Source: Flavobacterium sp. Root935 (GTDB taxonomy: Bacteria > Bacteroidota > Bacteroidia > Flavobacteriales > Flavobacteriaceae). Taken from it: a DNA stretch of 64,000 bases. The translations under genes were made by a program, and so were the position numbers. Shown one piece after another: positions 4,171 to 60,540 of this stretch. The stretch covers positions 1,268,949-1,332,948 of the forward strand of contig NZ_LMJL01000012.1 of assembly GCF_001429295.1 (NCBI RefSeq), given 5' to 3'. The notes beneath the pieces were generated by a model. That model searched no databases. It worked only from the letters and a program-made list of their open reading frames with translations, and was not told the DNA's origin. Each line of letters begins with the position of its first letter. The first letter of the stretch is position 1.

Positions 4171-4236
4171 TTTTTGCCACAGATTAAAAGAATTAAAGAG
4201 ATTAATCCTTTTAATCTGTGAAATCTGTGGCAAAAA
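4171..4236. repeat. Palindromic intergenic repeat, family A
   Basis: Perfect 15-base inverted arms, TTTTTGCCACAGATT at 4171-4185 and its complement at 4222-4236, enclose an AT-rich centre. Related sequence with the same ccacagatt / aatctgtgg words recurs at 22131, 46863 and 57371 in this window. It lies just after the DinB-like gene and could act as a terminator in either direction, since a run of T follows on both strands. Confidence 0.75.
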
Positions 4237-21854: not shown

Positions 21855-21865
21855 TTTTTAAGGCT

Positions 21866-21900
21866 CTAAGGTTCTGAGATGCTAAGATACTAAGTTTTTT
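21866..21900. repeat. Left arm of a 35-base inverted repeat (family F)
   Basis: The arm made of ctaaggttctgagatgc followed by taagatactaag and T6 is repeated in inverse orientation, without mismatch, at 22195-22230. Related words (cttagaaccttag, cttagaatcttag) occur at 51328-51357. No transposase or open frame lies between the arms. Confidence 0.8.
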
Positions 21901-43001: not shown

Positions 43002-43033
43002 AAAAAACGCTCTAAGTAATTAGAGCGTTTTTT
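43002..43033 (+). terminator. Terminator of amt
   Basis: A 14-base stem AAAAAACGCTCTAA / TTAGAGCGTTTTTT with a four-base loop lies about 30 bases after the amt stop. Its core is repeated at 43230-43260. Confidence 0.9.
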
Positions 43034-43229
43034 GTTTGAATTAATTTCTAAGCAATCTAAGAAGTCCTTTAAAGATTTAATTTTATGTACATCTTGAGTA
43101 AACAAACCCATATGTATGGAACTTTATTTATCTGAATTAATTTCACTACAGGCTAGCAAATTAACAACCTTAATTATTCAACAAAAAAACTCCTTTAAAA
43201 AACTTTAATCCGCTTAAATCTTGATCATA
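43034..43229. other. Spacer between twin terminators
   Basis: About 195 AT-rich bases bracketed by two near-identical terminators. No open frame or motif is recognised. A transcription starting here in either direction would be stopped quickly. Confidence 0.3.
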
Positions 43230-43260
43230 AAAAAACGCTCTAATTACTTAGAGCGCTTTT
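43230..43260 (-). terminator. Terminator of dsbD
   Basis: A stem with core CGCTCTAA / TTAGAGCG and a four-base loop, followed on the minus strand by seven T. It stops transcription from the convergent dsbD/tilS unit. The stem, loop and downstream gaattaatttc match the amt terminator. Confidence 0.85.
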
Positions 43261-43346
43261 TGTTTTGAATTAATTTCAACCCCAATATATTTTAAATTTT
43301 AGTCCCGAAGCATCAGGATAGATTTGAAATTTTAAAAGTCTAAAAT

Positions 43347-46862: not shown

Positions 46863-46922
46863 GCCACAGATTAAAGGATTAAAATGATTCTAAAATCTGT
46901 GTAAATCTTAATAATCTGTGGC
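46863..46922. repeat. Palindromic intergenic repeat, family A (copy)
   Basis: GCCACAGATTA (46863-46873) pairs with TAATCTGTGGC (46912-46922). Inside is a further near-copy aatctgtgtaaatc. The phrase aattcgtgcaaattcgg that follows also recurs near 22176 and 57600. Confidence 0.65.
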
Positions 46923-56207: not shown

Positions 56208-57368
56208 ATGGAAAAAATTTCAAGAAGATCGTTTGTGAATAAATTTGGAATTGGCGTTGGCGCGTCTGTTGTGATGACAGCTCTTCCTTCTTTTTTATCT
56301 GCACCTGACACTAACAAAACGCCTTACACTGGAAAGAAATTAAATATCGCGCTTTGCGGCTTGGGAAATTACGCTTCACTTCTGGCGGAAGGTCTTCAAG
56401 TTTCTGAATACTGCCAGCTTGCGGGAATCGTGACAGGAACACCTGCTAAAGCCGAAAATTGGAAAAAGAAATATAATATTCCCGAGAAGAACATTTACAA
56501 TTATGAGAATTTCGATTCCATCGTAAAAAACAAAGATATTGATTTAGTTTATGTCGTAACTGCCAATTCACTGCACAAAGAACTTACCATTCGGGCAGCA
56601 AAAGCTGGAAAACATGTTATTGTTGAAAAACCGATGGCGATTACTATTGAAGACTGCGAAGAAATGATTAAAACCTGTAACGAAAACAATGTACAACTCG
56701 CAATGGGTTATCGTCTGCATTATGAACCTAATCATCTGGAAGTAAAGCGACTTGGACAGGAAAAAGTTTTGGGTCAGGTTCGTTTTATTGAAGCCTCTCT
56801 TGGCTACAGCACGTATGATTTTCGTGATATTAATTCACCCGTAGATTTAAATGCCCGTAACCAATGGAGATTGAATAAAAAACTAGCTGGAGGCGGTACT
56901 TTAATCAATTTAGGCGTTTATTGTATTCAGGTTTCGCGTTATGTTTTAGGTGAAGAACCAATTGCTGTAACGGCACAATTTGGAACTGTAAACAATAAAA
57001 ATATGTTTGCTCAGGTGGAAGAAAATATTACTTGGCAAATGGAATTTCCAAGTGGTGCTGTGGCTAATTGCAGCAGTTCATATGGTTTTGGCATTGATAG
57101 ATTTTTTGCTTCCGCAGATGAAGGTACATTTGAAATGAGTCCTGCTGTTAGTTATGGCCCATTTGTAGGTAAAAGATCTGATGGAAAAGCATTTAATTTT
57201 CCTGTGATAAACCAACAGCAAACCCAAATGGATGAAATTTGCAAAGTGATTTTAGCAAACAAAAAACTCCCAAATCATATTACTGGAGAAGAAGGCATGA
57301 AAGACATGAAAATTATTAATGCCATTTATAAAGCAGCTGAAACTGGTAAAAAAGTTAGTTTGAAATAG
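56208..57368 (+). CDS. Tat-exported Gfo/Idh/MocA oxidoreductase
   Basis: A 386-residue oxidoreductase resembling glucose-fructose oxidoreductase. The N-terminus has a twin-arginine signal, SRRSFVNKFGIG, followed by a hydrophobic core to about residue 32, so it is exported folded with its cofactor. The Rossmann motif is IALCGLGNYAS, the catalytic EKP is in HVIVEKPMAI, and the C-terminal domain starts GGGTLINLGVYCIQV. A periplasmic sugar substrate is likely. It differs from the cytosolic relative at 40362. Confidence 0.9.
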   Translation: MEKISRRSFVNKFGIGVGASVVMTALPSFLSAPDTNKTPYTGKKLNIALCGLGNYASLLAEGLQVSEYCQLAGIVTGTPAKAENWKKKYNIPEKNIYNYENFDSIVKNKDIDLVYVVTANSLHKELTIRAAKAGKHVIVEKPMAITIEDCEEMIKTCNENNVQLAMGYRLHYEPNHLEVKRLGQEKVLGQVRFIEASLGYSTYDFRDINSPVDLNARNQWRLNKKLAGGGTLINLGVYCIQVSRYVLGEEPIAVTAQFGTVNNKNMFAQVEENITWQMEFPSGAVANCSSSYGFGIDRFFASADEGTFEMSPAVSYGPFVGKRSDGKAFNFPVINQQQTQMDEICKVILANKKLPNHITGEEGMKDMKIINAIYKAAETGKKVSLK

Positions 57369-57370
57369 TT

Positions 57371-57600
57371 TTTTTGCCACAGATTAAAAGAATTAAAATG
57401 ATTTTAAAATACTCTTTTAAATAAAACTTATAACCAAAGTTTGTCATTTCGATCCCGAGGCTTCGGGGGAGAAATCTCTGCGAGAAGCTCTACAAAGATT
57501 GGATTTTCGTTGCGGAGTTACTTGTGAAGATTTCTCTCCCGAAGCCTAGGGATCGAAATGACATAAAATGAGAAATAATCATTTAATCTGTGCCAAAAAA
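57371..57600. repeat. Family A palindrome enlarged by an inner palindrome
   Basis: Outer arms are tttttgccacagattaaa (57371-57388) and ttaatctgtgccaaaaaa (57583-57600), which pair with one mismatch. Between them lies an independent long inverted repeat at 57443-57562. The phrase attcgtgtaattcgtggc follows at 57613. Confidence 0.75.
57443..57562. repeat. Palindromic repeat nested in a family A copy
   Basis: Left arm, gtcatttcgatcccgaggc then ttcgggggagaaatct (57443-57477), and right arm, agatttctctcccgaagc then ctagggatcgaaatgac (57528-57562), are inverse copies with few differences. The arm start gtcatttcga resembles the gtcattgcga word at 51852. Confidence 0.8.
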
Positions 57601-57633
57601 ATTCGGGCTATTCGTGTAATTCGTGGCAAACTT

Positions 57634-60540
57634 TTATTTTAAGCAACTTCTCAAAATCGAAACAGGATGCTGCGCTTCACGTTTTGTTCCATCATAAATT
57701 TGATGACGACAGCTCGTTCCCGCAGCGGCAATTTTTACGTTTGCAGCAGTATTTCTAACTTTTGGGAAAAGTGTATCCTCTCCCATTTGCATACTTACTT
57801 TGTAATGTTCTTTTTCATATCCAAAAGAACCTGCCATTCCGCAGCAGCCTGAATTATAAATCGTAACAGTATTATTTTTAGGAAGATTCAGCATCGCGAA
57901 AGTTGCTTCAACAGAACTCAACGATTTTTGATGGCAATGTCCGTGAATTTTGATTTCTTTAGTTTCTTCAGAAAATGAATCAGGAGTTATTTTCCCGTCG
58001 ATGATTTCTTTTTTGAAGAATTCTTCAATAGTGAATGCGTTTTGGGAAATTCTCTCTGCATTTTCTTTGTCCGATGCCAATCGCAGATATTCATCTCTAA
58101 AAGTTAAAATTGCCGAAGGTTCGATCCCGATTAACGGCGCATTACTTGAAATTAAATCTTTGAAGATATTGATATTGATATCGGTGATTTTTTTGGCTTC
58201 TTCCAAAAATCCTTTCGATAAATACGTTCTGCCGCTTTCTTCGTGATCTACGATTAAAACCTGATATCCTAACTTCGTTAATAATTCAAAAGCGTCAATC
58301 CCGATATTTACATCGTAATAATTGGTAAATTCATCCACAAACAAATACAATTGTCCGTTTGGAAAATCGATATTTTTGGGTTTGTTATTTTCATACCATT
58401 TTCTGAAAGTCTTTTTCGCCAAAAGCGGAACTTGTCTTTCTGGCGCAATTCCCATTGATTTTTTAACTAGCGACTGATTCGAAATAAAATTAGTAATCGA
58501 TGGAAACAAACTTCCCATTTTGTTCAATTTTGCGTTATTGGCAAAAATTTTACTTCGGGTCGAAAATCCGTTTGCTTTTTGATATTGGTATAAAAATTCG
58601 GCTTTTAGCGTTGCGACATCCACGTTACTCGGACATTCGCTGGCACAGGCTTTACAGCTCACACACAACTCAAAAACTTCGTATAATTCTTTCTGGTCAA
58701 ATTTGTTTTCTTTTTCAGAATATGTCAAATATTCTCTTAAAGCATTTGCTCTGGCGCGCGTCGTTTCTTTTTCATTTCTGGTCGCGCGATAACTCGGACA
58801 CATCGCTCCTCCTGCCGATGGCATTTTCCTGCAATCGCCGGAACCGTTACATTTTTCGGCTGCACGAAGAATTCCTAAACTGTCTGAGAAATCTTGAAAC
58901 GTCTTAATATCTGGCTCTACTCTTCCTGAAATTACACGATGATTTTCGTCCATTTTCAAGGCGTTGACAATCTTCCCAATATTAAAAACCGAATTCGGGT
59001 CAAATGCCAATTTGATTCTTTTCAGCAATTCGTAGTTTTTCTCGCCAATCATAAACGGAATAAACTCCCCTCGCACAATTCCGTCACCATGTTCACCGCT
59101 CAATGAACCTCTATGTTTTTTTACCAAATGCGCCACATCGGTTGCAATGGTTCTGAATAATTTTAAATCTTCCGTTTTTTTCAAATTCAAAACCGGACGC
59201 AAATGCAGTTCGCCTGCACCCGCATGCGCGTAATAAATCGCTTCTTGTCCGTGGCTCAGCATCATTGCCGAAAACTCCGCAATATACGCTGGTAAATCAC
59301 TTAATTCAACGGCTGTATCTTCAATAGAATCGGCTGCTTTATTGTCACCAACAATACTTCCCAAAAGTCCAAGACCCGCTTTTCTCAGTTCGTTTGCTTT
59401 ATCAATATCTGGACCGTAAATCTTTACGCGGGCGTAACCAAAATTATGTTTTTCTAAATCGGCTATTAAATCATTAGCCTGTCTTTCGGCATCTTCTAGA
59501 GAATGAGAAGCCACTTCAAACAACATGATAGCTTTTGGTTCACCTACCAAAAAGAAACGATTTTTTATATGTTCGCGATTGGTTTTTGTACAATCCAAAA
59601 TGGTATCGTCGATCATTTCACAAGTGTACAAATGATGTTTCATTGCCACCACCACAGATTCTAAAGATTCCTGAATCGTATGGTAATGTCCAACCACCAT
59701 AATATTGTGTACAGGCGGTAAATCGTCAGCTTTTAAAGTGATTTCGGTTGTAAAGGCCAGAGTTCCTTCGCTTCCGCAGAGTAATTTTCCAACGTTAATT
59801 GTGGGTTCTGTTCCGCCAAATAAATCTGATCTTAGCAGAATATCAACAGCGTAACCCGTATTTCTTCTGTGAATTTCTGGTTTCGGAAACTCTTTTATAA
59901 TTTCTTCTTGATTTTCTTTTACCGAAAGTTCAGCGTAAAGGCGCTTATAGATTTTATTTTCTAAAGAATCTCCTCTGGTTTTCTCCATAAATTCCGCCGA
60001 AGTCAGTTCTCCAAAAGCTACTTCAGAACCGTCGCTCAAAATTGCTTTAACCTCAACAATCTTATCGCGCGTCACACCGTAACGAATCGAAGTTGTTCCA
60101 GATGAATTATTTCCAACCATTCCGCCAATCATAGCGCGGTTTGAGGTTGATGTAATTGGTGCGAAAAATACACCGTATGGTTTTAGGAATAAATTCAGTT
60201 CATCGCGAATAACACCGGGTTGTACCGTTACGGTTTTCTTTTCGGCATTATATGAAATGATTTTGGTGAAATTTTTCGAAACATCCACCACAAGTCCGTC
60301 TCCTACTGCTTGTCCAGCTAGTGAAGTTCCTGCAGTTCTTGGCGTAATCGAAATATTATGTTGTGCTGCGAAGCGAATTAATTTGCTGATATCTTCTACC
60401 GTCTTAGGCACAGCCACTGCATTTGGCCGAATCCGATACACTGATGCATCTGTAGAATAAAGTGTTTTATGAAGATCATCGTATAAAAGTTTGCCTTCGA
60501 GAGTATCGGCTAATTGCTCTAAATGAGATTGGGTCAACAT
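57634..60540 (-). CDS. FAD-linked oxidase with Fe-S and CCG domains (YdiJ-like)
   Basis: A 968-residue oxidoreductase related to D-2-hydroxyacid/D-lactate dehydrogenases. The N-terminal PCMH-type FAD domain (PRTAGTSLAGQAVG, GNNSSGTTSIRYG) is followed by a FAD-oxidase C domain with SGEHGDGIVRGEF. Two Fe-S regions follow: CNGSGDCRKMP with CPSYRAT, and CVSCKACASECPSNVDVA (about 620-645). C-terminal CCG-type cysteine motifs end the protein (GHCHQKSL, NSGCCGMAGSFGYE). It likely oxidises a 2-hydroxyacid and passes electrons to the quinone pool. The gene is monocistronic. Confidence 0.92.
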   Translation of the reverse strand: MLTQSHLEQLADTLEGKLLYDDLHKTLYSTDASVYRIRPNAVAVPKTVEDISKLIRFAAQHNISITPRTAGTSLAGQAVGDGLVVDVSKNFTKIISYNAEKKTVTVQPGVIRDELNLFLKPYGVFFAPITSTSNRAMIGGMVGNNSSGTTSIRYGVTRDKIVEVKAILSDGSEVAFGELTSAEFMEKTRGDSLENKIYKRLYAELSVKENQEEIIKEFPKPEIHRRNTGYAVDILLRSDLFGGTEPTINVGKLLCGSEGTLAFTTEITLKADDLPPVHNIMVVGHYHTIQESLESVVVAMKHHLYTCEMIDDTILDCTKTNREHIKNRFFLVGEPKAIMLFEVASHSLEDAERQANDLIADLEKHNFGYARVKIYGPDIDKANELRKAGLGLLGSIVGDNKAADSIEDTAVELSDLPAYIAEFSAMMLSHGQEAIYYAHAGAGELHLRPVLNLKKTEDLKLFRTIATDVAHLVKKHRGSLSGEHGDGIVRGEFIPFMIGEKNYELLKRIKLAFDPNSVFNIGKIVNALKMDENHRVISGRVEPDIKTFQDFSDSLGILRAAEKCNGSGDCRKMPSAGGAMCPSYRATRNEKETTRARANALREYLTYSEKENKFDQKELYEVFELCVSCKACASECPSNVDVATLKAEFLYQYQKANGFSTRSKIFANNAKLNKMGSLFPSITNFISNQSLVKKSMGIAPERQVPLLAKKTFRKWYENNKPKNIDFPNGQLYLFVDEFTNYYDVNIGIDAFELLTKLGYQVLIVDHEESGRTYLSKGFLEEAKKITDININIFKDLISSNAPLIGIEPSAILTFRDEYLRLASDKENAERISQNAFTIEEFFKKEIIDGKITPDSFSEETKEIKIHGHCHQKSLSSVEATFAMLNLPKNNTVTIYNSGCCGMAGSFGYEKEHYKVSMQMGEDTLFPKVRNTAANVKIAAAGTSCRHQIYDGTKREAQHPVSILRSCLK

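Follow-up and report, generated by a model that had tools for sequence, protein, structure and literature searches.

How does one palindrome come to lie between the arms of another? The question is raised by a spacer between two convergent genes of Flavobacterium sp. Root935 (genome size 5.08 Mb), in the 64,000-nucleotide stretch of DNA analysed here, which we refer to as the window. An earlier note on this DNA had regarded the arrangement as good evidence that the inner repeat family can move into existing repeats. Palindromes within palindromes are already a known kind of structure, since PMC3733652 reports REPs inside longer palindromes in A. variabilis (GTAG-15), T. roseum (GTAG-23) and H. 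neapolitanus (CGTC-1); the same paper mentions mosaics of interleaved repeat families in Neisseria. Among the matches listed, we recognised no description of the present Flavobacterium families in the open-licence literature, and the matches to the family sequence strings had no evident link to them.

The spacer holds palindromes at three levels

The spacer (57369-57633) is the gap between a 386-aa open reading frame on the forward strand (56208..57368), which reads into the spacer and was used as the anchor for orthologous loci, and a 968-aa open reading frame convergent with it on the reverse strand (57634..60540). We take the products to be a GFO/IDH-type oxidoreductase-like protein and an FAD-linked oxidase / Fe-S protein-like protein, respectively. 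The outer palindrome, family A, has a left arm at 57369..57406, composed of a T-run, GCCACAGATT and more GATT/AATT units, and a shorter right arm at 57579..57601, AATCTGTGCC followed by an A-run; taken as 38-nt arms (57369-57406 and 57564-57601), the two sides are 76% complementary. Between them lies family B, a 122-bp palindrome at 57442..57563 (TGTCATTTCGA...TCGAAATGACA) with 57-nt arms (57442-57498 and 57507-57563) that are 81% complementary. The segment between the left A arm and B (57407..57441) ends in AAAGTT, similar to a sequence found repeatedly beside other B copies, and the segment on the other side of B (57564..57578, TAAAATGAGAAAT) also resembles flanks of other B copies. Each arm of B contains a short palindrome, J, present as TCCCGAGGCTTCGGG at 57453..57467 and as its mirror, TCCCGAAGCCTAGGGA, at 57537..57552. 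The earlier note missed this level but had described the A arms as split by an unrelated palindrome, which we see within a few bases of its coordinates, and had assigned short centres to the other A copies in the window, which holds for the two paired copies seen there, one of 56 bp (4176-4231) and one of 60 bp (about 46863-46922; L150). A half copy of a third family, F, was recognised by eye at 57611..57628 (ATTCGTGTAATTCGTGGC), its partner arm missing.

When folded as single-stranded DNA, 57369-57601 reached -60.1 kcal/mol versus -21.0 (sd 3.4) for 200 dinucleotide shuffles, none of which was as low (z -11.6). Together with the reversed-pattern controls for the B and A termini given below, this rules out a chance palindrome. 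No open reading frame of 60 aa or more was found within 57369-57633, and a search for direct repeats in 57300-57700 gave no family of at least 12 nt. A search of 57000-58000 against Rfam gave five matches with E values of at most 1, all short of the gathering score; three of them were to microRNA hairpin families over B. Elsewhere in the window (43002-43261), two copies of a palindrome beginning AAAAAACGCTCTAA stand on either side of 196 bp.

Family B occurs alone and includes a J subfamily

The genome has 75 exact TGTCATTTCGA termini, versus 4 for the pattern read backwards. From the fetched loci we extracted 32 paired B copies, one overlapping another, with lengths of 38-156 bp; 29 are at least 87 bp long and the other three only 38 bp. 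J is present in both arms of 5 of the 29 long copies, in one arm of 2 and in neither arm of 22, and marks a subfamily of B. Membership in this subfamily explains the two-arm J better than copying from one arm to the other: among 20 B copies lacking J and K (a 27-bp arm insert described below), homogenisation of arms was not found. Arm similarity in this set was 0.834 within a copy versus 0.852 between copies, and because a copy's own arms are no more alike than those of other copies, this argues against recent arm-to-arm copying in B.

Many B copies are flanked by an AGTT-like sequence on one side and a ATGAGAAA-like or AGATTGAGG-like sequence on the other. As these short, asymmetric flanks are common to many copies, the B element seems to be slightly longer than its palindrome. 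A simple ORF scan placed 20 copies in the spacers of tandem genes and 9 in convergent spacers, with none in divergent ones; the remaining 3 of the 32 have no orientation class, one apparently lying inside an ORF and two being ambiguous. Across the phylum, a pattern scan detected B in at least 17 of 296 genomes and at least 8 of 139 genera, counts that are lower bounds because the pattern gap was 6 bases and our own copies mostly have 5. At one site (L271 vs L123), our genome carries B and a strain of the same species carries a related-looking palindrome beginning TGTCATTGCGAGGAACGAAGC, which suggests that the two belong to a wider superfamily.

Family A is recurrently nested, near its centre

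Family A yielded 22 paired hits in the fetched loci of the genome, which were picked by search hits and do not amount to a full census. Fifteen of the 22 are 37-97 bp long, the A copies as a whole being mostly 56-97 bp, and most solo copies consist of two arms almost back to back. After a 326-bp hit judged to be a chance pair (L084) and an overlapping 117-bp pair (L144) were set aside, at least 5 of the 20 remaining copies proved to be nested. The window copy contains B, two (L096 and L104) contain family F (GCCACGAATT), one (L139) a D-like palindrome and one (L140) half an F plus a C-like palindrome.

The same arrangement recurs across the genus. The A termini GCCACAGATT and AATCTGTGGC are found 81-141 bp apart in 31 of 120 Flavobacterium genomes, with 0 for the reversed control among the matches listed. 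Of the 36 genomes that reach 4.6 Mb, 26 have such spaced pairs; of the 84 smaller ones, 5 do. We read 40 spaced units, picked from four rich genomes; a script labelled the inner family as F, H (GTCAGGCTGAG), C or D in 32, and of the other eight, five show an F counted into the outer stem and three have no clear label. The inner part folded with z <= -3 in 24 of the 40 units and above that value in 16 (50 composition shuffles each). The inner element tends to start near the middle of A, with the standard deviation of its fractional position being 0.093 versus 0.19 for a uniform distribution over a 60-bp A; this statistic covers 38 rows with recognisable ends (F 27, H 7, B 4), including orthologues and counting loci L324 and L337 twice. 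Palindromes can thus come to lie inside A.

By eye, the arms of the A, F, C, D, CTAAG and ACATAG palindromes (e.g. window 21855-21900 and L393) look as if each were made of about three degenerate 8-10-bp units, a design common to these families. Arms of several families also carry off-centre inserts of 16-27 bp (TCCCGATAGCTATCGGGA; C[CT]CGAGCGATAGCGAAC-GGCGAAGCA), apparently without duplication, and we located these in the A arm (L374, L364, L422), the F arm (L407) and the B arm (L053, L153).

The window locus changes state among relatives

To follow the locus itself, palindrome states were assigned by eye to 31 genomes placed on a tree. Seven of the loci read had only one of the two flank genes (L170, L172, L176, L177, L181, L218 and L221). 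The tree leaves aside L174, with its 1.1-kb spacer, any second locus of a genome already included, and three further genomes that by eye have D (L026 and L027) or C (L041). B within A, written A[B], is present in 4 of the 31 genomes (our own, L153, L171 and L217) and A[C] in 6 (L154, L159, L164, L173, L182 and L222). The earlier note had suggested a search for an uninterrupted A at this locus in relatives, and three of the 31 genomes have one (L169, L179 and L180), the last two with an extra ~1 kb alongside; as B also occurs alone in our own genome, it is neither the case that the inner element never stands by itself nor that all relatives are nested. One genome has half an A plus C (L210), one has B beside C (L158) and two have mixtures, while D, F and C account for 7, 4 and 3 genomes, respectively. 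On the tree these states, read by eye, require at least 17 changes, with 10 for presence of A and 4 for presence of B. A gene-sized stretch of ~1 kb lies in the spacer of L174, L179 and L180 (F. salmonis, F. hibisci and F. limi).

At the locus of F. chungbukense (L158), a B copy occupies the place where L210 (G042) keeps the outer part of an A arm. Of the comparisons made, this one points most clearly to B being able to enter an A that is already there. In the window itself, the target duplications that had been proposed at 57440 and 57563 are absent, the flanks reading ...CCAAAGTT | TGTC and GACA | TAAAATG. Because the A[B] units of our genome, L217, L153 and L171 can be aligned with one another, the nest at this locus is probably old, and it looks inherited instead of being a clean insertion. 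The proposal that the inner family can enter existing repeats is thus partly supported. The solo B copies, the uninterrupted A at this locus, the orthologous loci with both uninterrupted and nested A (below) and the L158/L210 pair favour it; the lack of a clean insertion or a target duplication at this nest, the strain of the same species with neither family, and the cases of F standing alone or enclosing A (below) weigh against it.

By eye, no row among the 31 of the tree is without a palindrome of one family or another here, and none of the 29 classed B copies lies between divergent genes. Both observations would fit a stack that is selected as a terminator or mRNA-end structure for convergent genes, with the families interchangeable and only the hairpin mattering. 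However, tolerance at gene ends would equally give avoidance of divergent spacers, a terminator scan of 57200-57800 (loops of 3-8 only) found none, and family A has its T-run before the stem and its A-run after it, the reverse of the intrinsic terminator order. We therefore regard this explanation as very improbable.

Nested units are inverted between species

The left half of our unit (A arm, spacer, AAAGTT) can be aligned from end to end with the reverse-complemented right half of L153 (score 41.5 versus a shuffle mean of 3.3), and the left spacer (57407..57441) is by itself alignable with the inverted right spacer of L153 (z 4.6). For whole units, our genome scored 105 inverted and 51 direct against L153, 108 and 47 against L171, and 54 and 78 against L217; A[B] is oriented one way in our genome and L217 and the opposite way in L153 and L171. 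A[C] is likewise opposite in the sister species represented by L164 and L173 (144 inverted, 78 direct). At 18 other loci, 64 pairs were comparable once those with a best score below 0.35 of length had been dropped, and 12 of these were inverted, 42 direct and 10 undecided; the 12 inverted pairs come from 6 loci, with 5 of them from a single locus. At L421, by our reading, the inverted stretch seems to reach the outer F-like arms.

Whole units inverted between species could also be produced if A[B] or A[C] moved as one unit, with the A arms serving as terminal repeats of a cargo. Near-identical A/B junctions at two loci (our L006 and the window locus in L153), as well as an A arm adjoining B in L010, are in keeping with such composite movement. 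The recurring flank of B would, however, give the same junction if B always landed at the centre of A, and no second full A[B] was found among the A copies of our genome that were examined. Movement as a composite is in our judgement improbable.

Replacement of the spacer and change within it

The strain of the same species, G230, has at the window locus (L206) an F-type palindrome only, and neither A nor B. Flank pieces of 30 B loci of our genome were looked up in G230, and 26 of these loci (all but L016, L058, L079 and L119) were read there; by our reading, B is present at 19 and absent at 7. Five of the seven sites without B have another palindrome or repeat (L004, L010, L114, L115 and L123) and two have other DNA (L020 and L063). 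No clean empty site was found among the seven, and no target duplication was seen by eye at these presence/absence sites or at the flanks of the paired B copies of our genome.

Uninterrupted and nested states were further compared at 21 orthologous loci in five genomes, with fewer than five at some loci and with L425 and L426 incomplete. By our reading of the spacers, 4 of the 21 have both an uninterrupted A, in at least one genome, and a nested A elsewhere (L369/L404 vs L317; L408 vs L325; L418 vs L330; L434 vs L334). At two loci, a solo F is found in one genome (L409 at L325; L414 at L326) and an F enclosed by A in others, so it may also be A that is gained or lost, with the inner element staying put. 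The inner family itself differs at the L326 locus: one genome has F there and three have H, with one changed outer arm in two of the H rows. L419 has a full A inside a copy of F, meaning that the nesting order can reverse, to F[A]; one arm of this F holds K, the 27-bp insert that also occurs in B arms (L053, L153) and F arms (L407).

These data bear on a further alternative, in which already nested intergenic stretches are swapped by homologous recombination through the flanking genes, new nests being rare and the apparent swaps being imports. The whole spacer does differ within the species (L206 vs the window), the difference extends beyond B at the sites where G230 is without it, alignable nests recur in several species, and at several of the 21 loci the entire spacer is a different palindrome in other genomes, B in one case (L400, at locus L314). 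Yet in the same-species pair, identity in the neighbouring gene is 96% over its final 769 bp and continues to the very edge of the spacer. At the L325 locus, moreover, A alone, F alone and A[F] are all present among five genomes, which implies that composition also changes within a spacer. We consider wholesale replacement a minority explanation that is unlikely to account for the nests, although it deserves more weight than the two alternatives discussed above.

Relation to known mobile elements

Like MITEs (described in part in PMC3733652), the elements are short and non-coding, without an ORF of 60 aa or more, have inverted-repeat ends and are present in tens of copies. They differ from MITEs in that nearly the whole element is palindromic and no target-site duplication is present at the window locus. 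No parent transposase with matching ends was found in the stretches examined. In the fetched stretches of 1-3 kb that were scanned, B ends never paired over a distance above 400 bp, which speaks against an autonomous IS with B ends within those stretches, and no transposase or autonomous partner tied to A or B was found in the stretches fetched.

REPs and REPINs are defined as 20-40-bp hairpins that usually carry a GT[AG]G or CGTC tag (PMC3733652, PMC6006769). Our families resemble the REP/REPIN systems with TnpA-REP (RAYT) outlined in PMC6006769 in being non-coding, dispersed hairpins in a genome with Y1_Tnp genes, but are much longer, with B at 38-156 bp and A mostly at 56-97 bp (tags were sought by eye only). 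Our genome has two Y1 transposase (Y1_Tnp) genes, each with other GC-rich hairpins; at L052 and L051, each gene stands beside an array of its own hairpins, of CGTTAGGAAC and CTCCGCTGGA types, in a REPtron-like layout. Copies of A or B do not generally flank such genes: in a set of 22 Y1 loci drawn from several genomes, A-like and B-like motifs were found in 1 locus each, F-like motifs in 3 and C-like motifs in 9. Each of these is an isolated motif of 10-11 bp, matched with at most one mismatch, and chance alone would produce some of them. A B-like end (up to one mismatch) lies ~700 bp from the Y1 gene at our L052. In 11 of the 22 loci, GC-rich 10-mers unrelated to these motifs are repeated close to the gene.

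Nest count and Y1_Tnp count correlate across the 120 genomes (rho 0.53; 0.32 with genome size held) and also when only the 36 that reach 4.6 Mb are taken (rho 0.52), all uncorrected for kinship. The correlation speaks for mobilisation by a RAYT in trans, but two genomes (G029 and G053) have nests without any Y1_Tnp, and the 22 Y1 loci have mostly other hairpins or none. We therefore give RAYT mobilisation little weight.

Discussion

Several features of these spacers are direct observations: palindromes are nested, nesting recurs across the genus with the inner element near the centre, A is both uninterrupted and nested at orthologous loci, units lie in opposite orientations, and turnover is rapid. 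Insertion at a T/A-rich centre is the likeliest origin of the nest. On balance, we favour the view that the window spacer is a stack built as one dispersed palindrome lands in the T/A-rich centre of another, and then inherited, flipped and replaced. In this stack of non-coding, hairpin-forming members, A (arms of ~28-38 bp) is outermost, with B (122 bp) between its arms and J inside the arms of B. Once one dispersed palindrome had come to rest in the centre of another, the stack would be inherited as a unit. It could then flip where it stands, recombination or strand exchange between its inverted A arms being the simplest route, and a palindrome of another family would often take its place. 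Spacers close to the ends of genes would provide permissive landing sites, and no function beyond tolerance there would be needed. Insertion into a centre would be the usual direction of events, and the mobile form may be a hairpin-forming single strand at the replication fork, moved by a trans-acting activity or through template switching.

The REP-in-palindrome cases in PMC3733652 are similar in that small palindromic repeats lie within other palindromes. Their inner elements, however, are REPs with tags, and for two of the three no copy of the outer palindrome was found that lacks them. In contrast, A, B and F each occur here solo or nested, several families combine, the nesting order in Flavobacterium can reverse, and units are inverted between species. 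What sets Flavobacterium apart from those cases is this combination of several families, both nesting orders, free-standing outer and inner copies, and flips. As a more speculative extension, and one we would put forward only tentatively, the palindrome families of Flavobacterium might favour one another's centres as insertion sites and so form invertible, multi-level stacks at gene ends, by a mobility that relies on neither a known MITE transposase nor a RAYT.

Bacterial spacer palindromes are usually handled family by family, but one locus and one same-species pair reveal families that are stacked, that change rapidly and that take each other's places. Since orthologous loci offer the uninterrupted, the nested and the inner-only state, movement of the elements becomes directly testable across many strains of the same species.
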